Shown in pieces: positions 40,029-61,095 of a stretch of DNA of 61,700 nucleotides. The notes under the pieces were generated by a model that searched no databases, was not told the origin of the DNA, and saw only the letters and a list, made by a program, of their open reading frames with translations. The translations under genes and the position numbers were made by a program. How positions within the stretch are numbered: the first letter of the stretch is position 1; the number at the start of each line of letters is the position of its first letter. Origin of the DNA: Halanaerobium sp. MA284_MarDTE_T2 (GTDB lineage Bacteria > Bacillota > Halanaerobiia > Halanaerobiales > Halanaerobiaceae). Location of the stretch: contig NZ_QPJE01000013.1 in NCBI RefSeq assembly GCF_003337245.1, positions 1 to 61,700 of the forward strand. The letters run 5' to 3'.

Positions 40029-40044
40029 ATTAAAAAACAAATAA

Positions 40045-40149
40045 ACTTATCAAGAGTGGTGGAGGGACTGGCCCTTTGAAGCCCGGCAACCAGCAGTCTA
40101 TATACTGCCCGGTGCTAATTCCAGATGGATTATTCCTGAAGATAAGGAG
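40045..40149 (+). ncRNA. SAM-I (S-box) riboswitch
   Basis: Classic S-box sequence: CTTATCAAGAGTGGTGGAGG, GACTGGCCCTTTGAAGCCCG, GCAACCAGCAGT, ACTGCCCGGTGCTAATTCC and closing GATAAGGAG. P1 is ACTTATC (40045-40051) with GATAAGG (40141-40147). It is followed by a terminator and the metY-like gene, so high S-adenosylmethionine should stop transcription. Confidence 0.97.
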
Positions 40150-47938: not shown

Positions 47939-49342
47939 TTATGCATTTTCAGCTTCTAAAAAATTAACCTGGTCCTGTGTAGCTAAACTTACGATTATCA
48001 ATACCACTATTGCCAATGGACCTGCTATCACAATACTATTTAATCCAAATGGGGTACCCAATAAAACATCCCAGATTAACACAGTAGCTCCTCCAGAGAT
48101 TATAGATGCTAATCCTCCGGGCTTAGATGCTTTTTTCCAGAAAAGAGCTGCCAGCAGTGATGGAGTAATTGCTGCTCCATACATTGAATAAGCGTACATC
48201 TGCATACTCAAAATATTTGGGAAAAATGTTCCCATTACTAATGCAGCCACCGCCAGAATAAATATAGTTATTCTCATAGCAACTAATTTTCCTTTATCTG
48301 AAATATTTGGTTTAAAAAAATTTATGTAGAGATCATATACTATATTTGTCGAAGCAGAGAGCAAGTAAGAATTAGCTGTGGTAACAAAAAGTGCTATAGA
48401 ACATGCAATTATTAATCCACCAACCACGAGTGGTAATCCCATTGCCACCTGAAAAAATGCTGTATCAGGATTAGCTAATCCTGGATATAATACTATTGCC
48501 ATTACTACCATAGCGATTATTAAAATATCTAATAACAGTGCCAGACCAAACAGGCCAAAACCTGATTTATTTGCTTCTTCAGGGTCTTTGGCTGCTCCAA
48601 AACGCTGATAGAGATTTTGTTCTCCTAAAACAAGAAATATTGTAGGAAGCATATACCCTATAAGCTGAATATTTGAAAGCCCACCAGTAACTGTAGTTTT
48701 TTCTGCGGGTATTGAAGCAATTATTTCAGAAATACCACCGGCCTGACTGACTGCTATGGGAAGGCCAATTAAAATTGCTCCAAATATCAGCAGAGTACCT
48801 ATTGCATCTGTATATGCTACTGAGACAAGTCCACCTACCATAGCAAGAAATACTATAACAGCAGCACTGATAAGAGTACCTACCTGCACACTCATACCGG
48901 TAACAATATTTAATATATAGCCGCCAGCTTTAAATTGATAGGATACTATTCCAACATATGCAAGTATTATACAGACTGCCACAAGAACTTTAGCTAAAAC
49001 TCCATATTTTTTTTCAATCAATTCTGGCAGAGTATAGTTAACTTTTTCACGAATTCTTTTAGCTAAAAATAAAGCTATCAATAATAATCCCACTGGTTCA
49101 CCAATTAAATGAATCATACCGGCTATTGGTCCACGCTCATAAATAAAATTAGCGGTCCCAGTAATCATACCACTACCCATCCAAGTAGCCAGTAAAGTAC
49201 CAACTAAAACTGGAAATGGGAGAGAACGACCAGCTCTAACAAAACTATCACTATCTGTGATATATTTTTTGTTCAAATAAACTCCATAAAGAGAAATACC
49301 GATCAAATAAGCAAAAATAAAAATCAAATATTGTGTTTTCAT
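47939..49342 (-). CDS. Sodium:solute symporter (SSS), probable sodium:proline symporter
   Basis: Inner-membrane sodium-coupled transporter, 467 aa, about 13 helices. Typical segments: LATWMGSGMITGTANFIYERGPIAGMIHL, QFKAGGYILNIVTGMSVQVGTLISA, GGLVSVAYTDAIGTLLIFG, GEQNLYQRFGAAKDPEEANKSG and VTTANSYLLSASTNIVYDLY. Position between the M24 peptidase and the proline reductase genes makes proline (or a proline derivative such as a betaine) the likely substrate; this is inferred from context. ATG behind GAGGAGATG. Confidence 0.85.
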   Translation of the reverse strand: MKTQYLIFIFAYLIGISLYGVYLNKKYITDSDSFVRAGRSLPFPVLVGTLLATWMGSGMITGTANFIYERGPIAGMIHLIGEPVGLLLIALFLAKRIREKVNYTLPELIEKKYGVLAKVLVAVCIILAYVGIVSYQFKAGGYILNIVTGMSVQVGTLISAAVIVFLAMVGGLVSVAYTDAIGTLLIFGAILIGLPIAVSQAGGISEIIASIPAEKTTVTGGLSNIQLIGYMLPTIFLVLGEQNLYQRFGAAKDPEEANKSGFGLFGLALLLDILIIAMVVMAIVLYPGLANPDTAFFQVAMGLPLVVGGLIIACSIALFVTTANSYLLSASTNIVYDLYINFFKPNISDKGKLVAMRITIFILAVAALVMGTFFPNILSMQMYAYSMYGAAITPSLLAALFWKKASKPGGLASIISGGATVLIWDVLLGTPFGLNSIVIAGPLAIVVLIIVSLATQDQVNFLEAENA

Positions 49343-49783: not shown

Positions 49784-50641
49784 TTATTTACTGTATGCAG
49801 CTCTAAACATAGTAACTGAAGTATAAAAAATTACACAGATTACTAACCAGGTTAAAATATTGAGTGGTAAAGTTTTAACTATATAAGCTGCAATAAAAAC
49901 ACCGATAGCTCCTCCAATAGAAATTGCCAGAGAAGCTTTTCTGTTATAAGCACCTTCCTTAATAAATTTAACAGAAGCAACCGGCATTAAAAAGGCACAG
50001 GATCCCATCATAATAGGAAAAGCAACCCGGGCACTCATTCCCAGCATGTAAACTAAAGCCATACAGGGAGCATAAAGCCCAATTCCTAGTGTCATTAAAG
50101 CACCTAGAATCAAATTAACTCCATTTGCAATTATTAGTTTTAAACCAGTTAAACCAACTGCTTCTCCACCAACTGGCATCCAGCCCAGCTGACCTGAAAT
50201 CATTAAAACAGCAGTAATAAACAAGGCAAATGCCATTCCATACTGTACCTTTTTCTCTGGTAATTTAGATACAATTCCAGCTCCAATCCAGGCTCCTACT
50301 GTAGCTGATGCTATCATGCTAAATAAAGTTATGGGATCAACATTTATTACTGAAATAAAAATAAATGCTTCAATAATTACAGGAATTGTACAGGAAACAT
50401 TTAAAGTTCCTGGTAAAATACGATCACTAATCTGCTTAAATCCTCTCAATAAGGCTGTCGTAGGTGCAAAACTACCAATGCCAAGTGTATCAAAAAAATT
50501 GGTTGCAAATCCAATTGCTCCTGATTTAAACCAATCTGTTCTATTTTCTAAATTACTATAATTTTTTACTGTATCTCGGGCCAGCTCCACACCAAACCAG
50601 CTACCCAATAAAGCTAACATACCTAATAAAATATTAATCAA
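49784..50641 (-). CDS. TauE/SafE family (sulfite exporter-like) membrane protein
   Basis: Inner-membrane transporter of the TSUP family, 285 aa, with about eight helices and the repeated GxGxGxxxxP-type motifs (NFFDTLGIGSFAPTTALLRGF and LGIGLYAPCMALVYMLGM). Family members export sulfite or small organic anions, or import them; the substrate is unknown. It is the last gene of the proline block, 47 bases after proline racemase, so a product or co-substrate of proline fermentation (such as 5-aminovalerate) can be imagined but not shown. TTG at 50641 fits AAAGGAG best; GTG at 50650 overlaps that site. Confidence 0.85.
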   Translation of the reverse strand: MINILLGMLALLGSWFGVELARDTVKNYSNLENRTDWFKSGAIGFATNFFDTLGIGSFAPTTALLRGFKQISDRILPGTLNVSCTIPVIIEAFIFISVINVDPITLFSMIASATVGAWIGAGIVSKLPEKKVQYGMAFALFITAVLMISGQLGWMPVGGEAVGLTGLKLIIANGVNLILGALMTLGIGLYAPCMALVYMLGMSARVAFPIMMGSCAFLMPVASVKFIKEGAYNRKASLAISIGGAIGVFIAAYIVKTLPLNILTWLVICVIFYTSVTMFRAAYSK

Positions 50642-50696
50642 TTTATTCACTCCTTTTAATAGTTTATTTATCTAATTCATTAAAAGATCAGATTAT

Positions 50697-51701
50697 TTAT
50701 AAACAAAATCCATTTTGGAGAGGATCATCTGGATCAATTACAAATTGGTTAAACCCTGTTATATAGGCATTAGCAGTTATTTGAGGGACTACAGCTTCAA
50801 AATCTCCTACCTTAGCCAGACCTACTATTTTTCCTTTAAATAAAGTTCCAGTTATACTTTCATATACAAACTCTTGATTTTCTTTTAACTCACCTTTTTT
50901 ATATAAAGTAGCTAATTTAGCACTTGTTCCTGTTCCACAGGGAGAACGATCCAGCTGGCCCTGGCCAAAAACAACTGCATTCTTCTTATCAGCAGCTGGA
51001 TTAGTTGGATCATCATAAATTTCCACTAAATCAACCTGATTAATATGCGGTTTTTCTGGGTGCTGAACTTTAATTGTCTGATTAACAATATCTCTAATTT
51101 GAATCCCTACTTTTTTTAGCTGATCAGCATTTGCATGATTAACCTGTAAGCCAAGATCTTTAGCATTTACAATTGCGAAAAAACTACCTCCAAAAGAAAT
51201 ATCTAACTTAACTGCACCAATTTCTGGCACTTCAATTTCTAAATTTTCCTTATAAACAAAAGAGTTAACATTAATTATAGAAACTGATTTAGCTTTACCA
51301 TCTTTAACTTCTACCCTGGCTTTAATTAAACCAGCCGGTGCTTCTAAAACTACATCGGTATAAGGTTCTTTGACTTCTACCATACCGGTCTCAACTGCAA
51401 CTGTGGCTGCTCCAATACTGCCATGACCGCACATATTTAGATAACCACCACCATCCATAAACACAATTCCTAAGTCTGCTTCTTCTGTAGTTGGGGGTAG
51501 AATAATGGAACCAAACATATCATTATGGCCACGCGGTTCAAACATTACTGTAGTTCTGATGTTATCCAAATATTCTTCTAAATATGCTTTCTTTTCAGCC
51601 ATATTTTTACCTGGAACTTTTGGCACACCACTAGTTATAATTCTGGTGGGTTCTCCCATAGTATGAGAATCAACAGCTTGAATACTTTTAATAAAATTCA
51701 T
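50697..51701 (-). CDS. prdF: Proline racemase
   Basis: Cofactor-free racemase converting L- to D-proline, the substrate of the reductase, 334 aa. The two catalytic cysteines are visible: MCGHGSIG (about residue 89) and RSPCGTGTSA (about 253). DSHTMGEPTRII, EPRGHNDMFG and SITGTLFKGKIVG are further signatures. Cys-Cys marks a true racemase rather than the Cys-Thr trans-3-hydroxyproline dehydratase. Downstream of prdE by 198 bases; Shine-Dalgarno AAGGAGG. Confidence 0.95.
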   Translation of the reverse strand: MNFIKSIQAVDSHTMGEPTRIITSGVPKVPGKNMAEKKAYLEEYLDNIRTTVMFEPRGHNDMFGSIILPPTTEEADLGIVFMDGGGYLNMCGHGSIGAATVAVETGMVEVKEPYTDVVLEAPAGLIKARVEVKDGKAKSVSIINVNSFVYKENLEIEVPEIGAVKLDISFGGSFFAIVNAKDLGLQVNHANADQLKKVGIQIRDIVNQTIKVQHPEKPHINQVDLVEIYDDPTNPAADKKNAVVFGQGQLDRSPCGTGTSAKLATLYKKGELKENQEFVYESITGTLFKGKIVGLAKVGDFEAVVPQITANAYITGFNQFVIDPDDPLQNGFCL

Positions 51702-51899: not shown

Positions 51900-52361
51900 T
51901 TATCTTTTCATTTTAAGTTTTAAAAATGCCAGCGCTTTTTTGGCATCAAGCTCATCAACAGTATTTTCACCAACAACTTCTGTTTCTATTCCAGATTCTG
52001 ATTTATTTATATCTATTATTGTATCCATATACCTATTTTTTACAACAAATTTACCCTGTATACCAATAAAACTAAGTCCAACTACTTCTATATCCCGAAC
52101 AGCTATTTCTTTTATTGTATTGGCAAAATCTACATCAGAATTACCCCAGCCATCTGCTGAAACTATTGCTCCGTCAACCTGCATTGCTTCCGCCCACTGA
52201 GCAGCTCTCTTCCCAACATAATATTTTTCTTTTTGTGATTGCGGAGTGCCAACTATAATTACTCCCATAAGATTAATATCTTCATCTTTATTTATGATAT
52301 TTAAGAGCGGATCACGAAAATGATGTAAACTTGTTTCCTTTGTTGATGGACCAATTCCCAT
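51900..52361 (-). CDS. prdE: PrdE, paralogue of the C-terminal part of PrdA
   Basis: 153-aa protein of the proline reductase locus. From MGIGPSTKETSLHHFRDPLL on it follows PrdA from Cys493 (CIGPASKETSRHYWREPLV) to its end: VIIVGTPQSQKEKYYVGKRAA, DGAIVSADGWGNSDVDFANTI, GIQGKFVVKNRYMDTIIDINKS. Where PrdA has the Cys that becomes the pyruvoyl group, PrdE starts with Met-Gly, so it cannot be processed that way. It follows prdD by 30 bases; together they correspond to a whole PrdA without its N-terminus. The exact role of PrdD and PrdE in the family is not settled. Confidence 0.9.
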   Translation of the reverse strand: MGIGPSTKETSLHHFRDPLLNIINKDEDINLMGVIIVGTPQSQKEKYYVGKRAAQWAEAMQVDGAIVSADGWGNSDVDFANTIKEIAVRDIEVVGLSFIGIQGKFVVKNRYMDTIIDINKSESGIETEVVGENTVDELDAKKALAFLKLKMKR

Positions 52362-52391: not shown

Positions 52392-53147
52392 TTATGTCAT
52401 GGCTCTAATTGCCCCATCTCGATATTCATTAGGAGATAGTATTACTGGCATATTGCCCATGTCGATAATTGATCTACCACCTTTAAATCCTGATGGCTCA
52501 TCAGCTAAAATCTGGTTATCATACATTGCTCCCTGACCGGCAACCTGCTTGACTAACACAATTTTTTTCTTATCTGGATTTATTTTTTCTTCATATTTAT
52601 GTATTTCATCTGCTTTTCGTCCATCTATATTTTTTAGTTTTTCACGGATCAAATCCAAAAAATTGTCACAAGCTGCATGAACACTCTGAGCTGCTTTTCT
52701 TTCAAAAAGATATTTTTCTTTAACTATAACTTCAAAATTAATTATATAGTCATCTTTTGCCGGGGTACCTGCTCTTCCAAAAATAACTCTATCAGAAAGT
52801 ATGCCTTCAGAAGATCCAAATTCGGCCATCTGTCTTCCTTTTTCGTCCGCACAGCTTAAGAGCAAATATACCCCGGTTAATGTATGAGTAATGCCAGTTC
52901 CTAAATTACCAAGTGCTTTAACTGAGATAGGGATAAAATCCAGGATATTATTCACATATTGATCATGTCTATCTGGTGAAATAATTTTTAAATTTATATC
53001 TTTTATTATTTCATTTTGAAAATCTATTTTATTTAGATATTCTCTATCCAGTTTGAGAACATTATCTTTTATTTCTGTAAAAGATCCTAGTTCTACTTTA
53101 TTAATATTAAAAGCTTTGATTGTCAATTTGCGTTTTTCCCCCGACAT
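52392..53147 (-). CDS. prdD: PrdD, paralogue of the central part of PrdA
   Basis: 251-aa protein. It follows PrdA residues of about 240-492: AFNINKVELG, IISPDRHDQYVNNILDFIPI, MAEFGSSEGILSDRVIFGRAG, KKKIVLVKQVAGQGAMYDN and MGNMPVILSPNEYRDGAIRAMT. It stops exactly at the residue that precedes the processing Cys in PrdA (HALT-C). Shine-Dalgarno AGGAGG. Upstream is prdB (44 bases). Such PrdA paralogues accompany proline reductase genes in clostridia. Confidence 0.9.
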   Translation of the reverse strand: MSGEKRKLTIKAFNINKVELGSFTEIKDNVLKLDREYLNKIDFQNEIIKDINLKIISPDRHDQYVNNILDFIPISVKALGNLGTGITHTLTGVYLLLSCADEKGRQMAEFGSSEGILSDRVIFGRAGTPAKDDYIINFEVIVKEKYLFERKAAQSVHAACDNFLDLIREKLKNIDGRKADEIHKYEEKINPDKKKIVLVKQVAGQGAMYDNQILADEPSGFKGGRSIIDMGNMPVILSPNEYRDGAIRAMT

Positions 53148-53191: not shown

Positions 53192-53917
53192 CTAAATTTT
53201 AGCATTATACTCATAAGGTAGTTTTACTATTCTTCCTGGAGTTTCTATTTCTTCTAACTGTTTTAATGTATCACGCACAATATTCAACTGCATTTCAGCA
53301 TTGTTTGGTTCACCTGCATTAGCTCCCATAGGTACTAAAGGAGCAGTCACTCTTGGTGCACCATTTTGACGAACTACTGGAGGTAATGCTGCAATAATAA
53401 TTGTCGATATACCAGCACTTTCAATCGCTCTCTGCACAATCACGGCAGAGCGGTGGCAGGTACCTCAGCCAGCAGTTAATAAGACTGCATCAACACCTTC
53501 TTCTTTAAATATTTCAGCAATTTTGGGGCCAGTTTCTTCTTTGAAGACTTTTACATCACCCCCACCTCCCATAAAGCCTACATGTTTGGAAGCTACTTCT
53601 TTAATAAATCCTTCTGATTCAAGCTCTCTCAATCTGTCCAGAGGAAACATACAGTTGATGTCTTTGTTAACATCACTATTATCATAGCCACCATGTGAAA
53701 CCATTAAATCTTCACTTGAGGCATCACCTGGAATAATTCGATATCCTGTATCACCTGCCAAATTAAATCTTTTATCACTCTTTAAATGTACTCCAGCTGC
53801 AGTAGCAAGCGCTACTTTCATTTCTTTTAAAGGTTTTTCTACCGGTGTCCAGACAACTTCGGGAGTAATCGGAACATAAATTTCGGACTGCAGTCCTTTT
53901 ACAACGGTTAAACTCAT
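53192..53917 (-). CDS. prdB: D-proline reductase subunit PrdB, selenoprotein
   Basis: Catalytic selenocysteine subunit that reduces D-proline to 5-aminovalerate, 241 aa. An in-frame TGA at 53467-53465 is codon 151, giving LLTAG-U-GTCHRSAV, the UxxC motif of the family; the frame continues without interruption to 53192 (IESAGISTIIIAALPPVVRQ). A hairpin just after the UGA (CGCTCTGC with GCAGAGAGCG, two-base bulge) fits a bacterial SECIS element. Total length agrees with known PrdB. Its ATG overlaps the stop of the small gene upstream (ATGA). Programs that read TGA as stop split it into two ORFs. Confidence 0.97.
53410..53467 (-). promoter_or_regulatory. UGA recoding site and candidate bacterial SECIS hairpin in prdB
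   Basis: UGA at 53467-53465. About 12 bases later CGCTCTGC pairs with GCAG(AG)AGCG around CGTGATTGT, with GU in the apical loop, the expected place for SelB binding. Confidence 0.75.
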
Positions 53918-54207
53918 TTTGCTCCTCCTTTACTTTTTTTATTATTTTTTCTAAGCTTTTTTATATTACTTCTTTTTATATTGGCTAAATAATCTTCATT
54001 TACATCAGAAGCTAAAACTTCTGGATATGTCATCATAAAACCTACTTCCTGACCAACTTTTATTTTATAATCACTAATCAACATGCGGCGGGGAATATAG
54101 ATTTCTCCCATACGCCCTTTGAAATCAATTGCTACTGCACAATCATTTATTTCAGTTATAATACCTTCATAATATCTTTCTGTGGAAATATATTTTAAAT
54201 TATTCAT
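53914..54207 (-). CDS. Small conserved protein of the proline reductase locus
   Basis: 97-aa protein between prdA and prdB. It has a beta-rich middle (YYEGIITEINDCAVAIDFKGRMGEIYIPRRMLISDYKIKVGQEVGFMMTYPEV) like an S1/KOW-type barrel and a very basic tail (KRSNIKKLRKNNKKSKGGAK). A protein of this size at this place is usual in clostridial prd operons; function unknown. It overlaps prdB by four bases (ATGA), and its last codons GGAGGA provide the prdB ribosome-binding site, so translation is coupled. Confidence 0.85.
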   Translation of the reverse strand: MNNLKYISTERYYEGIITEINDCAVAIDFKGRMGEIYIPRRMLISDYKIKVGQEVGFMMTYPEVLASDVNEDYLANIKRSNIKKLRKNNKKSKGGAK

Positions 54208-54254: not shown

Positions 54255-56357
54255 CTAATTATCTTTTTCATCTTTTTCATAAATTTCTTTTCTCTTTTTG
54301 CTCATTTTAAGGGAAGTTTCATTAGGAGCAAGTTCTATTTTTTCTCCTAGAGTATCTTCAATTACTTCGATATTATTTAACTTAACATTTGGGTTCCAGG
54401 ATCTTTCCGGTGCTTTAATTTCTTCACCAGCTACTTTGCTTTTTAGCATAGCTATTGCTCTTATGGCATCTTCTTTAGTCAGACAGTTATTTTCTAAAAT
54501 TTCATTTTCAATACCCTGTCTGGATTTATTTAGATCAACCATAGCATCCATATATTCATTACCAACTACAAGCTGGCCCTGTACTGCTGCATAGGTGACT
54601 CCTACAACCGGAACTCCTCTTTTACCCACCTGTTCAATATTACTTGCAAAGTCCACATGGTTATTTCCAAATCCTTCTGTAGTAACAATGGCACCATCAA
54701 GGTCCATAGATTCTACCGCCATTCCCAGTAATTTTGATACATAGAATTTTTCTGAATTTACCTGTGGTGATCCAATTAAAATTACTGTTGTTAAATCTAT
54801 TTCATCATCATTCATAGCTTCCATTACTAGAGGTTCTCTCCAGTAATGTCTTGAAGTCTCTTTAGAAGCTGGGCCAATACAGGTTAAAGCATGAATACAG
54901 CCATCTATAACCTGTAGTGGTGAGACTACAATCGGAACATTACCTAAATCTACATTTGCTTTAGCACCAAGTGTGCCTACTGGTTCAACAGGAAGTAAAT
55001 AATTATCATGCATTGCTCCCTGGCCCATTATTTCCTTTATAATAGCAACTTTTTTCTTCCCTGGCCGGCGCTTCTGAACAAATTCCTCTTCCCTTACTTT
55101 AAGGCTTTCGTCCAACTCTTTGAGAACTTCACGAATTTCCTGAGTGATAAAATCAGTTGCTTTATGAGCTGCCATAGGTCCAGGCCTTTCCATTCCTGTT
55201 CCAGCTTTAACTTTAACATCTGTCTTAATAAATATTTCGCCTTTTTCTGGTGCACCGGGGCGGCCCCACATAATATTTCTTTCTAAAATACCTTCTGAAG
55301 AACCAAATTCTCCAATCTGTACACCTTCTTCATCTGTTCCAGTTACCATTACAATTACTCCATCAATAACTCTTGTGATGCCTTCTCCAAGTTCTCCTTC
55401 TTCTTTAACTGCAATTGGCTGAACATCCATAATAGTATTACTGAATTTATCATAATCATCAGGAGTTATTATATCTATTTTGAGATCAACAACAAGATCT
55501 TCTGAATCTACAGCATCCTGACAGATATCCTTTCTAATGTAAAGGGTTTTATCCTCAATTTTGCTTTCTCTAGCAAATTTTACCTCATTTATTTCGAAAT
55601 ATTTGCGCTTTAGTTTACGTACAATTATTTCTTCTTCTGCCTTTTTTTCTTTATCTGCTGTATCTTTAATTTTTAAACTTTTGCTTTGATTTGATTCTGC
55701 AATAGTTTGTGCACCCCCCTGTACAGTAGTATTGAGAGGTAATTCTATATCAATACCTTTTCCCTCATCTATCTTTATTTTAAGTACTCCACCTCTTTGA
55801 ACATTATTTTGATTTGATTTTCCACCTTCTTCAGTTGTGGAATCAGGATATTCTTTAATTACTGCTTTTTTAATTGGAGTTAAAGCTGGTAAATCCTGAG
55901 AAAGAGTTTTACCTACTGCTTCCCTCCTGCTTAATACATTATCACTGTCATTTAAATCAATGAGAAGAGAATCTTCTAATTTATCAAAATGCATTGGATC
56001 TTCTAAATCGTCTATAGTAATTTTTTCACCTGCTTTTTTATTTATCTTAAGCACTGCTGCCTGGTCTTCATTACTTAATTTAATGTCTTCATCCTCTTCC
56101 ATTTTTTTAATATCTTCAAACATTTCTGGAGTAAATGGTGTCAGAGAATCAACAGTTTCTTTAAGTTTGGCACCTATTACCTCCCCTATTTTTAAACAAT
56201 TGTCCGGAATTTCCAGCAGGTTTGAATCAACTAGATCTGGAATAATAGCTGGATCTTCCAGGTTCTTTGCAGAAATGACTGTTCCGGCTTCTGTACGGCA
56301 GCAGCCAACTGCTACTTCATTTTTCATCTTTTGTGCTTCTTCAGCAGAAATTGACAT
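54255..56357 (-). CDS. prdA: D-proline reductase proprotein PrdA
   Basis: Precursor of the two PrdA-derived subunits, 700 aa. Self-cleavage before Cys493 in HALTCIGPASKET gives the larger N-terminal chain (1-492) and a C-terminal chain (493-700) whose Cys becomes the pyruvoyl group that binds D-proline. Residues 1-190 repeat Lys/Glu-rich stretches with paired segments (KKMEEDEDIKLSNEDQAAVL); the central part resembles PrdD, the C-terminal part PrdE. MGQGAMHDNYLLPVEP and GFGNNHVDFASNI are conserved. Start ATG behind AAAGGAG. 137 bases after prdC; no sigma-54 box of its own is visible. Confidence 0.95.
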   Translation of the reverse strand: MSISAEEAQKMKNEVAVGCCRTEAGTVISAKNLEDPAIIPDLVDSNLLEIPDNCLKIGEVIGAKLKETVDSLTPFTPEMFEDIKKMEEDEDIKLSNEDQAAVLKINKKAGEKITIDDLEDPMHFDKLEDSLLIDLNDSDNVLSRREAVGKTLSQDLPALTPIKKAVIKEYPDSTTEEGGKSNQNNVQRGGVLKIKIDEGKGIDIELPLNTTVQGGAQTIAESNQSKSLKIKDTADKEKKAEEEIIVRKLKRKYFEINEVKFARESKIEDKTLYIRKDICQDAVDSEDLVVDLKIDIITPDDYDKFSNTIMDVQPIAVKEEGELGEGITRVIDGVIVMVTGTDEEGVQIGEFGSSEGILERNIMWGRPGAPEKGEIFIKTDVKVKAGTGMERPGPMAAHKATDFITQEIREVLKELDESLKVREEEFVQKRRPGKKKVAIIKEIMGQGAMHDNYLLPVEPVGTLGAKANVDLGNVPIVVSPLQVIDGCIHALTCIGPASKETSRHYWREPLVMEAMNDDEIDLTTVILIGSPQVNSEKFYVSKLLGMAVESMDLDGAIVTTEGFGNNHVDFASNIEQVGKRGVPVVGVTYAAVQGQLVVGNEYMDAMVDLNKSRQGIENEILENNCLTKEDAIRAIAMLKSKVAGEEIKAPERSWNPNVKLNNIEVIEDTLGEKIELAPNETSLKMSKKRKEIYEKDEKDN

Positions 56358-56494: not shown

Positions 56495-57793
56495 TTATGC
56501 ATCTAATTTTAGTCTTCTTGTGAGCGGATAATTTAATGTTCTAAAAACATGGTCAGTATGGTGATAAACTGGAATGCCCAGTTTAGGTGCACAGCACATT
56601 ACTGTATTTGAACAGTCACTACAATTGGCAATAAGTACTCTTTCTGCCCCTGCTTTTTTTAGTTTCATTATTTTTTCAACCTGGCCAGGACATTCTCCAG
56701 GAGTTTTACATTTTAAACTGCCATTATTTTCAACAACATTTTTGCACTGTTCTACACCGACAACTTCTGCACCCATTTTTTCAGCTATATCCCGCAGCCT
56801 TGCTTCATCAGCACCACAGGCACAAACAAGTAATCCCAGTGGTCCAGTATATTCTGGAAAGGGAAGAGTTATTAGCGCTCCACCATCGACTTTTGTTAGA
56901 ACTGCCTCTTCCAGAGAAACAGCTTTACCTGTATATGGTCCGCCAATTATTAATTCACCATAATCTCCCTTTATACCACCTGCTTTTTCAATTAACAATT
57001 TAATGGGGGTTCCAATCGGAACTCTTAATTTTACGACCCTTGTTTTTTCTCCATTTAACTTACCAGCAATTGTTATATCTTTATCTATTACCGGTTTTCT
57101 TTTTTCTACAGCCTCACTGATATTAAAAATTGTTTCTGCATTTAATACTACAGAATTTACCTCCAACGGCAGCTGATCTGGTTCCAACCATTTACCAAAA
57201 ATTTCTTTGATAATTGCTCTTTCTTCACCCATAGGGTATATGTCTCTCAACTTTTTAACTTTAATATTATTTTCTGATGAAGTTTTTTCTTCTAAAGCTT
57301 TTACAGCTTTTTTGTTTTTAGCTTTTATCGCAATATATGCCTCTTCTGCCCCAGTAATTTCCATTACATATTTAATACCTCTAATTATAGAGGTGGGGTC
57401 TTTTTCAATTAAACTGATGTTATGGTTAAGTATTGGTTCACATTCAACACAATTAGCAATAACAAAACCGTTATTTAATTCACAATTAAGCTTAACATGT
57501 GTTGGGAACCCTGCTCCACCAGCACCTACAATGCCGGCTTCTTTAATCATTTCTAGATAGTCATCACTTTTATTCAGTTTTAAAAAATCATCCTTCTCTA
57601 CTTCCTGACTGGATTCAATAATAACTTCTGTTTCTGTAATTTTTTTAACTTTACCAGAAACACTGGCATGGATATTTGCCCCCAGTCCATCAGCTTCTGC
57701 AATAAGTTGACCTCTTTTTACTGCAAAATTTTCATTTACGATTACTTTTGATAATGATCCTATATGCTGTTTTAATGGTATCTTAAAATCCAT
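56495..57793 (-). CDS. prdC: PrdC, RnfC-like electron transfer protein of proline reductase
   Basis: Electron donor linking NADH or Rnf to proline reductase, 432 aa. N-terminal barrel-sandwich motif (IPLKQHIGSLSKVIVNENFAVKRGQLIAEADGLGANIHASVSGKVKKI), then the RnfC/NuoF-like flavin-binding fold (IVGAGGAGFPTHVKLNC, VIANCVECEPILNHN), and a Cys-rich C-terminus (CACGADEARL, CPGQVEKIM, ANCSDCSNTVMCCAPKLG). All likely redox positions are Cys; no in-frame TGA is seen. ATG at 57793 is preceded by GGAGGTG and lies about 25 bases after the start predicted from a sigma-54 promoter. Confidence 0.93.
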   Translation of the reverse strand: MDFKIPLKQHIGSLSKVIVNENFAVKRGQLIAEADGLGANIHASVSGKVKKITETEVIIESSQEVEKDDFLKLNKSDDYLEMIKEAGIVGAGGAGFPTHVKLNCELNNGFVIANCVECEPILNHNISLIEKDPTSIIRGIKYVMEITGAEEAYIAIKAKNKKAVKALEEKTSSENNIKVKKLRDIYPMGEERAIIKEIFGKWLEPDQLPLEVNSVVLNAETIFNISEAVEKRKPVIDKDITIAGKLNGEKTRVVKLRVPIGTPIKLLIEKAGGIKGDYGELIIGGPYTGKAVSLEEAVLTKVDGGALITLPFPEYTGPLGLLVCACGADEARLRDIAEKMGAEVVGVEQCKNVVENNGSLKCKTPGECPGQVEKIMKLKKAGAERVLIANCSDCSNTVMCCAPKLGIPVYHHTDHVFRTLNYPLTRRLKLDA

Positions 57794-57828
57794 CACTGCA
57801 CCTCCTTTATTTCTCATTATATTAATAA

Positions 57829-57844
57829 TGCATAGTCTGTTCCA
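57829..57844 (-). promoter_or_regulatory. Sigma-54 (-24/-12) promoter of the prd operon
   Basis: TGGAACAGACTATGCA on the minus strand keeps the invariant GG and GC with exact spacing of the consensus TGGCAC-N5-TTGCW. It lies 36 bases upstream of the prdC ATG and downstream of the sigma-54 activator gene prdR. Confidence 0.75.
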
Positions 57845-57865
57845 TAAAGTCAACTTGAAAGAAAA

Positions 57866-57905
57866 AAGACCCAAAAAAGGCCGAATCAGCCTCTTTTAGG
57901 TCTTA
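57866..57905 (-). terminator. Intrinsic terminator between prdR and prdC
   Basis: On the minus strand AAGACCTAAAAGAGGC pairs with GCCTTTTTTGGGTCTT (G-U and one mismatch) around TGATTCG, followed by TTTTTC. It insulates prdR from the sigma-54 promoter. Confidence 0.85.
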
Positions 57906-57941
57906 AATAACGTTTTTTATTAAATTTTTCTATATATTTTA

Positions 57942-57995
57942 TGACGAATTTTAGTCATTCTGACATCATTATTTTGAGTTGACGAAATTTAATCA
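57942..57995 (-). promoter_or_regulatory. Two candidate PrdR enhancer sites
   Basis: TGACGAATTTTAGTCA (57942-57957) and TGACGAAATTTAATCA (57980-57995) are direct copies of one partly palindromic 16-mer, 38 bp apart. They lie 98-151 bp upstream of the -24 element, the normal distance for a sigma-54 activator. Confidence 0.65.
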
Positions 57996-58027: not shown

Positions 58028-59770
58028 CTAGATATTATATTTATTAATTTTTGAGTGAAGTGTAGTTCTGGGGATTTTTAGCAATTCTGCCGCCAGCTTA
58101 ATATTACCATCTGATATATTGAGTGCCTGTTTTATTAATGATGATTCGTATTCTTCAACTGCACTTTTTAAGCCAACACTTTCGGTATAAATACTATCAA
58201 TATTTTCTCTATTTAAAACCTTTTCACGTATATAGTGGGGGACAAGCTCAGGGGTAATTACTTCATCATCCTGAGCAAGTGCAAGTAAGTGTTCTACCGC
58301 ATTTTTTAACTCTCTAGCATTTCCCGGCCAGTCATAGTTCATCATAATATCCATTACTTTGCTTTCAACTTTTGGTACTTTTATTTTATTTTCAGCCGCT
58401 ATTTCCTCTAAAAAATGCTGAAAAAGCAATATAATATCCTCTTTCCGCTCTCTAATTGGCGGCAGGTTAATATTAATTACATTTATTCTGTAGTATAAAT
58501 CTTCTCTGAATTCGCCTTTTTTAACCATCCTGCTTAAATCTTTATTTGTTGCTGAAATTACTCTTAGATTAAGTTCTAATTTCTTTTCTCCACCTATTTT
58601 TTTTATAGTTTTATCCTGAAGCACCCTAAGCAGTTTAGCCTGCATAAATAAGGGGAGGTCTGCTATTTCGTCTAAAAAAATGGTTCCATTATTTGCCAGC
58701 TCAAAAAGTCCTTTTTTTCCTCCTTTTTTAGCGCCTGTAAATGCACCTTCTTCATAACCAAAAAATTCACTTTCAAATAATTCTTTAGGGATAGCACTGC
58801 AGTTTACTGGTACAAAATATCCCTCTACATCACTGTAATTGTGGATGGCTCTTGCAAAAACTTCTTTGCCGCTTCCACTCTCTCCAGTTATTAAAATAGA
58901 GGCACTGCTTTTTGCAACTCTTTTTGACATATCTATTTTTTCTTTAATAGCCTTACTCTGGCCTACCACATTACCAAAATTATTATCAGTCTTTTTATCA
59001 ATCTCTTTTTGCAAAAACTCTATTAAATCATTGGCCTGTTTTAGTTCTTTCTGCATTTTTTTTACTTCAGAAATATCGCGGTCTGTACTTACTACCCCAA
59101 AAAATTTGCCCTTAATATAAATTGGAACTGCACTAATTATAATATGACAACCTTTACGTGGTGTATGATAAATATTTTTTACTTTTTTTCTTGTTTCTAA
59201 AATTTTAACATCAATAGCATTGGGAAAAAAATCCTGAAGCAGTTCTCCTATAATTTTTTTTGAAGTAATTCCATAAAGATCTTCAGCCTTATTATTCCAG
59301 ACTAAAACTCTACCTTCTTTATCAATTAAACAAACAGCCTCACTGATATTATTAATTATATATTTGAGAATAACACTTATTTTTTCGATCCGCATATAGA
59401 GAAAATTTCTAATATGCTCCTGTCGAATTACCCCAACCAATCGTGAGCCGCGGATAACCGGCAATCTACCGATACCTTCTTTTACCATCAAATCTCTGCA
59501 CTTAAGCAGAGTATCCTCAGGTCTAATATAAATTATATCTCTTTTTAAAAGCTCGTTAAAACTATCCCCATTTTTATGACAGATACTATAAAGATCTTTT
59601 AAGGTTATTATTCCTCTAATATTATCTGCTTCATCGACTATAAAAATTTCTTTTTTTGTATTCTTCATCAATATGTCTGAAATATTTTCTATGCTACTTC
59701 CTTTTTTTATTTTAATAAAATCTTCTGCCATTATTTCTTTTGCCTGAATGTCATAGCTTGCTAACTTCAA
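58028..59770 (-). CDS. prdR: PrdR, sigma-54-dependent activator of proline reductase genes
   Basis: Enhancer-binding protein, 580 aa. Two N-terminal CBS repeats (about 1-125; IVDEADNIRGIITLKDLYSI, LPVIRGSRLVGVIRQEHI), a PAS domain (about 130-235; LIDKEGRVLVWNNKAEDLYGI), the AAA+ domain (about 265-490) with Walker A GESGSGKEVFARA, sigma-54 contact loop GAFTGAKKGG, Walker B TIFLDEIADLP, and a Fis-type HTH at the end (NIKLAAELLKIPRTTLHSKI). It starts with TTG behind GGAGGAG. Located upstream of the prd operon with its own terminator; the two 16-mers and the -24/-12 promoter that follow are its likely targets. Confidence 0.94.
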   Translation of the reverse strand: MKLASYDIQAKEIMAEDFIKIKKGSSIENISDILMKNTKKEIFIVDEADNIRGIITLKDLYSICHKNGDSFNELLKRDIIYIRPEDTLLKCRDLMVKEGIGRLPVIRGSRLVGVIRQEHIRNFLYMRIEKISVILKYIINNISEAVCLIDKEGRVLVWNNKAEDLYGITSKKIIGELLQDFFPNAIDVKILETRKKVKNIYHTPRKGCHIIISAVPIYIKGKFFGVVSTDRDISEVKKMQKELKQANDLIEFLQKEIDKKTDNNFGNVVGQSKAIKEKIDMSKRVAKSSASILITGESGSGKEVFARAIHNYSDVEGYFVPVNCSAIPKELFESEFFGYEEGAFTGAKKGGKKGLFELANNGTIFLDEIADLPLFMQAKLLRVLQDKTIKKIGGEKKLELNLRVISATNKDLSRMVKKGEFREDLYYRINVININLPPIRERKEDIILLFQHFLEEIAAENKIKVPKVESKVMDIMMNYDWPGNARELKNAVEHLLALAQDDEVITPELVPHYIREKVLNRENIDSIYTESVGLKSAVEEYESSLIKQALNISDGNIKLAAELLKIPRTTLHSKINKYNI

Positions 59771-60028: not shown

Positions 60029-60991
60029 TCAATATATTTCATCCCAAAAATCTCTGCCAAAATATTTATTTTCCAACCTAGTTATTTCAAAATGTGCTTC
60101 TTTACGGAAAGCCAAAAAATTGTTTAAAAACTTTCTTCCTTTGGAAGTCAGCTTTGAGCCACCACCAGAAGAACCACCTTTATGTCTTTCAATCAGTTTA
60201 AACCCCAGCCTATGCTCAATATCATTTATCAAATTCCAGGCCTGACTGTACGACATATTGATATCCTGAGCAGCCTTATTGAGAGAACCATATCTGTCAA
60301 TTCGCAAAAGAATGTCACAGGGGCCATCCCCAAAAACTTTATCACTTTTTTCCAGCCATAATTTATAATTTAAATTTATACTCTCATCTTCAACCTTATT
60401 TTTATACTTTTTATATTCATCAAAATAATCTATATCCAGAATAATATTCTTATCATCAACCGGAAAATACAAAACATCTTCTGGATGTCTTTTAATCAAA
60501 TTTCTAAGCCCATAAGGTGAATTTGTAAGCTGTTTAATCTGAGGTACCAATTCTTTAGAAATTATGACAGGATGGCCTCTAACATCATCATAAACTGGAA
60601 CAATTATTTTTTTGCTGTCTGCCAGATATTTCTCTATAATTAGATTATAAGTATCAGGAGCAATCATTGGTTTATCAGCCAGAGTGATAAGAATATGTTC
60701 TGTACTCGGGGCCAGGTCTTTAAGTCCTCTTTTTATAGATGAAAGCATACCAGTTTGATAATCTGCATTAACCAATACCCTTATTTTTTCATTAATAATA
60801 TCTTTTATATGCGGATATATCTTTTCAGCCTCTGCGCCAAGAATTATTCTTATTTCTCCGTCAAACAGGTCAGTTTTTATTAAATTATTTACAGTTGTTT
60901 CAAGTATCGTGGAATCAGAAAAAGGCAGGATTTGCTTTAATGCTCCCATCCTATTACTTTCACCTGCAGCTAATACAAGAGATGTAATCAT
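60029..60991 (-). CDS. MobA-like NTP transferase fused to a ModE-type HTH domain
   Basis: 320-aa two-domain protein. Residues 1-195 form a MocA/MobA-like nucleotidyltransferase: SLVLAAGESNRMGALKQILPF (NTP loop), TLADKPMIAPDTY and VPVYDDVRGHPVIISKEL. Residues about 210-320 are a LysR/ModE-like winged helix: ILLRIDRYGSLNKAAQDINMSYSQAWNLINDIEHRLGFKLIERHKGGSSGGGSKLTSKG. It probably attaches cytidylate to the molybdenum cofactor and regulates molybdate or hydroxylase genes. ATG at 60991 is behind GGAGG; the longer frame starts earlier without a site. It lies near XdhC genes, which mature molybdenum hydroxylases. Confidence 0.88.
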   Translation of the reverse strand: MITSLVLAAGESNRMGALKQILPFSDSTILETTVNNLIKTDLFDGEIRIILGAEAEKIYPHIKDIINEKIRVLVNADYQTGMLSSIKRGLKDLAPSTEHILITLADKPMIAPDTYNLIIEKYLADSKKIIVPVYDDVRGHPVIISKELVPQIKQLTNSPYGLRNLIKRHPEDVLYFPVDDKNIILDIDYFDEYKKYKNKVEDESINLNYKLWLEKSDKVFGDGPCDILLRIDRYGSLNKAAQDINMSYSQAWNLINDIEHRLGFKLIERHKGGSSGGGSKLTSKGRKFLNNFLAFRKEAHFEITRLENKYFGRDFWDEIY

Positions 60992-61095
60992 AAATACCTC
61001 CAATATTTTCAAGTCGTTAAGTTTAAAAAACTCTAAAAATATATCAATTACTTTAGCTATTTAATTTATTATACCTACAAATATATTAATATTTT

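Follow-up and report, generated by a model that had tools for sequence, protein, structure and literature searches.

A sigma-54/PrdR-type switch upstream of prdC in Halanaerobium sp. MA284_MarDTE_T2 and a co-varying recognition helix and target site in one PrdR branch

The prd locus and its control region

We analysed a stretch of 61,700 nucleotides from Halanaerobium sp. MA284_MarDTE_T2 (referred to as the window), in which a prd gene cluster and its control region are located on the minus strand. The features are given in the order in which this strand is read, with the evidence in brackets.

58028..59770, minus: prdR, encoding a sigma-54 enhancer-binding protein (CBS-CBS-PAS-AAA+ with GAFTGA-HTH_8; domain search, NF041552 equivalog)
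58049..58075, minus: codons of the PrdR recognition helix, I566-PRTTLHS-K574, in which H572 and S573 mark the branch (helix comparison, tree, alignment columns)
57980..57995, no strand: UAS 2 TGACGAAATTTAATCA, predicted PrdR dimer site (sequence, relatives, genome search)
57942..57957, no strand: UAS 1 TGACGAATTTTAGTCA, predicted PrdR dimer site (sequence, relatives, genome search)
57866..57904, minus: intrinsic terminator at the end of prdR, separating the UAS pair from the prdC promoter (18 pairs and a T tract, -25.5 kcal/mol, z -6.1 versus shuffles)
57829..57844, minus: sigma-54 -24/-12 element TGGAACagactATGCA upstream of prdC (sequence reading and matrix scan; host-dialect match)
56495..57793, minus: prdC, first gene of the controlled operon (TIGR04481, 641 bits, cut-off 490)
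54255..56357, minus: prdA (TIGR04480, 962 bits, cut-off 700)
53914..54207, minus: CBO2463/CBO2479-domain protein of the prd operon (NF041553)
53192..53917, minus: prdB with one in-frame TGA (TIGR04483 on its first part; 88% identity over 241 aa to genome G046)
52392..53147, minus: prdD (TIGR04482, 363 bits)
51900..52361, minus: prdE-like gene (match to the C-terminal part of PrdA)
50697..51701, minus: prdF, proline racemase (PRK13969, 576 bits, cut-off 556)
49784..50650, minus: TauE/SafE-family membrane protein (PF01925; beside prd genes in relatives too, loci L015, L017 and L067)
47939..49342, minus: sodium/solute symporter, possibly a proline carrier (superfamily-level match only; a relative lies beside prdR in locus L187)

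The prdR product comprises two CBS domains, a PAS domain, an AAA+ domain with the GAFTGA motif and a Fis-type HTH, and narrowly exceeds the cut-off of the TF_PrdR equivalog NF041552 (797.1 vs 795 bits, model positions 4-577). Its neighbourhood is that of a PrdR as well, with prdC, prdA, prdB, prdD, the prdE-like gene and prdF located downstream on the same strand; the TGA within prdB we take to be the expected selenocysteine codon of the selenoprotein PrdB family. The genome encodes a single RpoN and, PrdR included, six bEBPs whose sigma-54 activation domain is complete; both the sigma factor and a GAFTGA activator for a sigma-54 promoter are present.

The -24/-12 element, TGGAACAGACTATGCA, carries GG and GC 10 bp apart, ends 36 bp before the prdC ATG at 57793 and is the single GG-N10-GC site in the gap between prdR and prdC. 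The two 16-bp dyads span 98-151 bp upstream of the T at -24, beyond the terminator. An initial annotation of this DNA had described the element with its distance to prdC, the two upstream copies of TGACGAAwTTTArTCA, the terminator separating prdR and the UAS pair from the promoter, and the GAFTGA loop in the adjacent PrdR, all of which we recovered with the same positions and letters. The prd genes of Halanaerobium sp. MA284_MarDTE_T2 sit behind a sigma-54 switch of a known kind. By its letters alone the -24/-12 match is not significant, since the window contains 37 matches where 26 are expected, and a clostridial matrix puts the element at rank 10 of 123,370 positions; what makes it significant is its context, together with the comparison to relatives and to other sites of the host.

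Spelling of the prdC promoter and the sigma-54 dialect of the host

In 84 other prd loci, TGG-N10-GC precedes the prd gene in every case (84/84) and the promoters share the consensus TGGCAY-N5-TTGCW. The prdC promoter of the window departs from this consensus by two substitutions, C to A at letter 4 and T to A at the start of TTGC, and it is the weakest of the 85 according to a matrix that is clostridial and not that of the host (9.6 bits vs a median of 21.7). The exact GG-GC spacing emphasized by the initial annotation is correct, but the phrase hides how far the letters lie from the clostridial ones.

Since these letters are weak by clostridial standards, prdC could instead be driven by an overlapping housekeeping (sigma-70) promoter, the -24/-12 match then being due to chance. 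Indeed, TTGACT-17-CATTAT (9 of 12) overlaps the element at 57853-57825, and the -12 GC is followed after about 10 bp by a perfect TATAAT, itself preceded at 17 bp by TGGAAC. We nevertheless consider this explanation very unlikely, because shuffled sequence contains more sigma-70-like matches than the region does (16.7 vs 10), each of the 84 other prd promoters in the training set has TGG-N10-GC at the same position, the activator PrdR carries GAFTGA and has conserved upstream sites, and the spelling of the element recurs beside other bEBP genes of the host.

This last point concerns the intergenic sites near the five other bEBP genes (TGGAATAAATATTGCAT, TGGAACGATATATGCAT, TGGAACAATTAATGCAT, TGGAACGATTAATGCAT, TGGAATAAGAAATGCAT and TGGAATAAAAAATGCAT), which read TGGAAY-N5-WTGCAT, the alignment extending through GCAT, and which indicate that the prdC promoter is an ordinary one for this host, spelled in its own sigma-54 dialect. 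There are 29 exact TGGAAY-N5-WTGCA matches in the genome, compared to none for the reversed-pattern control. Four of the five other bEBP genes have such a match no more than 1.5 kb away (chance about 1e-5), and for the fifth the distance is 5.3 kb. An earlier reading of the prdC element as a degraded promoter, derived from the clostridial matrix, was dropped given that these sites share the same spelling. The four canonical TGGCAY-N5-TTGCW matches in the genome are not promoter-like and lie in apparent coding or repeat sequence. Exact TGGAAY-N5-ATGCA is also found in coding sequence, both in the host genome and throughout the order, so that letters alone do not define promoters; whole-order counts of both spellings are uninformative, since coding matches dominate, and the dialect is drawn from pattern searches and selected genome stretches.

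TGG(A/T)AY-N5-(A/T)TGCA is also located near bEBP genes in H. polyolivorans (L070), H. congolense (L085) and the genomes G019 and G001, whereas G027 differs in having TGGCAT-N5-TTGCA. A difference in the RpoN box, which reads RRTLAKYR in the host and RRTVAKYR elsewhere, might explain the dialect; G019 has the ordinary box and uses TGGTAT-N5-TTGCAT. The host-dialect spelling of the prdC promoter appears to be new. As a side observation, the TGGAAY-N5-WTGCAT sites at the host (G000) loci L352, L360, L362, L372, L374 and L375 are often followed by an AT-rich stretch resembling TTAATATA.

Upstream dyads and the recognition helix of PrdR

The published PrdR site, TGT-N10-12-ACA, which describes a motif and does not define the PrdR protein family, is absent from the prdR-prdC region of the window, where TGAC-N8-GTCA is found instead. 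The exact site TGAYKAAWWTTMRTCA occurs in the 2.47-Mb host genome at UAS 1 and UAS 2 only. For comparison, PrdR loci were drawn from the order of the window, from named genomes and from the orders of Anaerosalibacter and Geosporobacter (about 117 stretches of at most 14 kb each), resulting in 89 loci with prdR followed by prdC, prdA or prdF, and 87 once duplicates were removed.

The conservation of the 16-mer in relatives, a check that the initial annotation had proposed, is borne out among PrdR proteins with the same helix as in the window (IPRTTLHSK, HSK in short): TGAC-N8-GTCA with at most one arm mismatch is present in 16/16 of their regions, 13 of them exact, compared to a mean of 0.71 and a maximum of 5 in shuffles. 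Most PrdR proteins pair with another dyad, which corresponds to the form given by Nie 2019. TGTC-N8-GACA (at most one mismatch) is found in 61 of 64 regions next to a ..TLYYK helix (YYK; 38 exact, shuffle mean 3.9) and in six of seven next to a ..TLHYK helix (HYK; two exact, shuffle mean 0.3), i.e. in 67/71 together, while shuffles reach at most 8 regions in any helix class. The motif predicted by the initial annotation belongs to the PrdR branch of the window only. An unbiased count of all 4-bp dyads, without a preset motif, yielded the same two families, TGAC and TGTC.

In an alignment of 580 residues, only five columns separate the PrdR proteins of the TGAC class (residue in at least 90%) from the remaining ones (at most 10%). 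Those inside the DNA-binding domain are two, 572 and 573, and both are located in the recognition helix. Position 573 is Ser in 16/16 proteins of the TGAC class and Tyr in 102/102 of the rest, and position 572 is His in 16/16 compared to Tyr in 94 and His in 8 of the other 102. Since the HYK proteins retain the TGTC type, position 573 is the one pointed to. According to our own ungapped alignment, the two residues would be equivalent to Y426 and R427 of LuxO, whose alanine mutants have lost DNA binding (PMC11407668), and we infer that they set the half-site and caused the change in specificity. In the PrdR tree, all HSK proteins, including that of the window, form one clade (SH-aLRT 97) with the HYK group as its sister (support 93), which indicates that the switch of helix and site happened once; other changes on the same branch may also have contributed.

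Both types are found in one Anaerosalibacter genome (G038), in which L174 (HSK, TGACTAATATTAGTCA) and L203 (HYK, TGTCAAGAAGTTGACA) each precede their own prdC. The second of these prdR genes (L203, G038:C43:66211-79833) contains an in-frame internal TGA, and is accompanied by its prd operon and by sites of the TGTC type. A further observation concerns genome G039, which besides an HSK PrdR encodes a PrdR-like bEBP with the helix STLYFK (L291, G039:C1:2714500-2734000); the gene for this bEBP precedes one for a sodium/solute symporter and is directly followed by a TGTC-N8-GACA dyad, TGTCTGAAAATTGACA.

Taken as a whole, the comparison argues for a recognition helix and DNA target sites that changed together in one PrdR branch, from ..TLYYK/..TLHYK to TTLHSK and from TGTC to TGAC, a co-change that appears to be new. 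Alternatively, every PrdR might bind TGAC and TGTC dyads alike, TGAC having arisen by neutral drift and the helix change being incidental. That the switch occurred only once is compatible with this view, as is the presence of TGAC-N8-GTCA with at most one mismatch in 20/64 YYK regions, some of them hybrid (TGAC..GACA). The exact sites, however, separate nearly fully, with TGAC in 13/16 HSK regions compared to 1/64 YYK and 0/7 HYK regions, and TGTC in none of the 16 HSK prdR-to-prd intergenic regions compared to 38/64 and 2/7; moreover, the discriminating columns of the DNA-binding domain fall only within the recognition helix, at the LuxO Y426/R427 equivalents (PMC11407668; our ungapped alignment). 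We therefore regard drift as unlikely.

The dyads could also be sites of another regulator, given that the genome encodes five other sigma-54 activators and that PrdR is a predicted occupant. This would be hard to reconcile with the 87 regions, across which the dyad type follows the helix of the neighbouring PrdR, and with G038, in which the two prd loci differ to match. In addition, three of the other bEBP helices of the host read IAVRSLYYK, ITRATLYNK and ISRQSLRYK, and the exact dyad site is found nowhere else in the genome, which makes a different regulator most improbable. Binding by the adjacent PrdR remains our preferred reading, without extension to a universal code: an unrelated bEBP with the helix ARNTLYSK (L021), i.e. 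with Ser at the equivalent position, has TGT-type dyads (TGTTAGA), and the general rule that Ser at this position gives TGA was rejected on this account.

Origin of the locus, proposed mechanism and relation to known systems

Few genomes of the order to which the host belongs encode PrdR (4/38 at E <= 1e-150, of which one exceeds the cut-off), and the PrdR of the window groups in the tree with those of G046 and G038, which belong to the order of Anaerosalibacter. Identities to G046 amount to 65% for PrdR, 65% for PrdC, 73% for PrdA and 88% for PrdB, compared to 43%, 54%, 57% and 75%, respectively, for G019, a member of the same family as the host. For RpoN, in contrast, identity is 39% to G046 and 44-49% to G019. 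This opposite relationship indicates that the prd module was probably acquired horizontally, the donor presumably being Tissierellia-like, as far as the direction of transfer can be deduced from such comparisons. The G019 locus (L197) also has prdR followed by prdC, but with its more distant PrdR it differs in helix (IPRSTLYYK), site (TGTCAGTTTTCTGACA) and promoter (TGGTATGAAAATTGCA), and is apparently a separate acquisition. The rpoN gene of G019 (C38:74613-75704) is broken by an internal TAA and extends over two frames, despite the presence of prdR-prdC with a sigma-54 element, which could reflect a sequencing error.

In general, bEBPs bind to a UAS, form a loop and use ATP hydrolysis to remodel the closed complex of sigma-54. 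For the window, we propose that prdR has its own transcription unit, which would end at the terminator (57904-57866), and that PrdR dimers would occupy the two dyads in the prdR 3' region, followed by formation of the AAA+ oligomer. This oligomer would loop to the sigma-54 polymerase held at TGGAAC-N5-ATGCA and open it, so that transcription of prdC-prdA and the rest of the operon is predicted to begin near 57818. The acquired locus would have kept UAS of the donor type, the letters at -24/-12 following the host dialect. Binding to the dyads would be triggered when the CBS/PAS part senses proline status, by analogy with C. difficile, where PrdR controls proline-dependent growth (PMC12285225). 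We consider this explanation as a whole, from the separate prdR unit to the branch change and the acquisition, highly probable.

Scanning the host genome also pointed to a possible second target. At G000:C10:18069-18202 (L365; wider L376), an intergenic promoter in the host dialect, TGGAATATATAATGCAT, has a dyad resembling those of the PrdR branch, TGATTAATCTTAATCA, 118 bp upstream and precedes a gene for an OPT oligopeptide transporter (PF03169, 194 bits) with a leader of about 350 bp, in which no Rfam family was matched. The chance that one of the roughly 11 listed one-mismatch UAS-like sites lies within 200 bp upstream of any of eight intergenic dialect promoters is about 0.007. None of the sigma-54 activators of the genome is located on the contig of this gene, which we regard as a possible PrdR target and as a lead rather than a result. 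Tentatively, and with clearly less confidence than in the mechanism itself, the observations could be joined as follows: a helix change centred on Tyr to Ser at 573 re-targeted one branch from TGTC-N8-GACA to TGAC-N8-GTCA, two mutually insulated circuits can share a cell as in G038, and one member moved to a halophile, in which the core promoter alone took on the recipient dialect and PrdR gained the oligopeptide transporter as a further target.

Control of prd genes by sigma-54 and PrdR is already known and not new, reportedly since Bouillaut 2013. A search of the open-access literature did not yield an experimental determination of a PrdR site. According to Nie 2019 (PMC6615313), control by sigma-54 and PrdR was predicted for nine Clostridiales species from Alkaliphilus, Clostridioides, Clostridium and Geosporobacter, with a UAS of TGT/ACA inverted repeats 10-12 bp apart that is likened to the NifA/FhlA type, and sigma-54 bound at C. 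difficile prdC and prdA in EMSA. The Geosporobacter PrdR in our set (L201) is of the YYK type. The window shares with this Clostridiales system the activator family, the target genes, the arrangement of a -24/-12 element with upstream dyads, and a 16-bp dyad with 3-bp ends and a 10-bp spacer. It differs in the half-site (TGAC, not TGTC), the helix (TTLHSK, not (S/T)TLYYK), the promoter (TGGAAY-N5-ATGCA, not TGGCAY-N5-TTGCW) and the order prdR-prdC-prdA, with the UAS, the terminator and the promoter between prdR and prdC. Ends and spacer are likewise shared with the NifA/FhlA-type UAS (TGT-N10-ACA), as are a Fis-type HTH dimer and a sigma-54 promoter, whereas the third base of the half-site is A in the branch of the window and not T.

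The branch offers a testable case of a target change in a sigma-54 activator, in which essentially two helix residues and a single base of each half-site are involved and natural examples of both pairings occur within one genome. Neither the published PrdR motif nor the textbook -24/-12 consensus would detect the prdC promoter, so that a separate matrix is needed for predicting regulons in Halanaerobiales. Apart from the prd locus, the window contains a SAM riboswitch (RF00162, 76 bits) at 40044-40148 on the plus strand and, at 60029-61012 on the minus strand, a gene for a MobA-like nucleotidyltransferase fused to a ModE-type LysR HTH domain.
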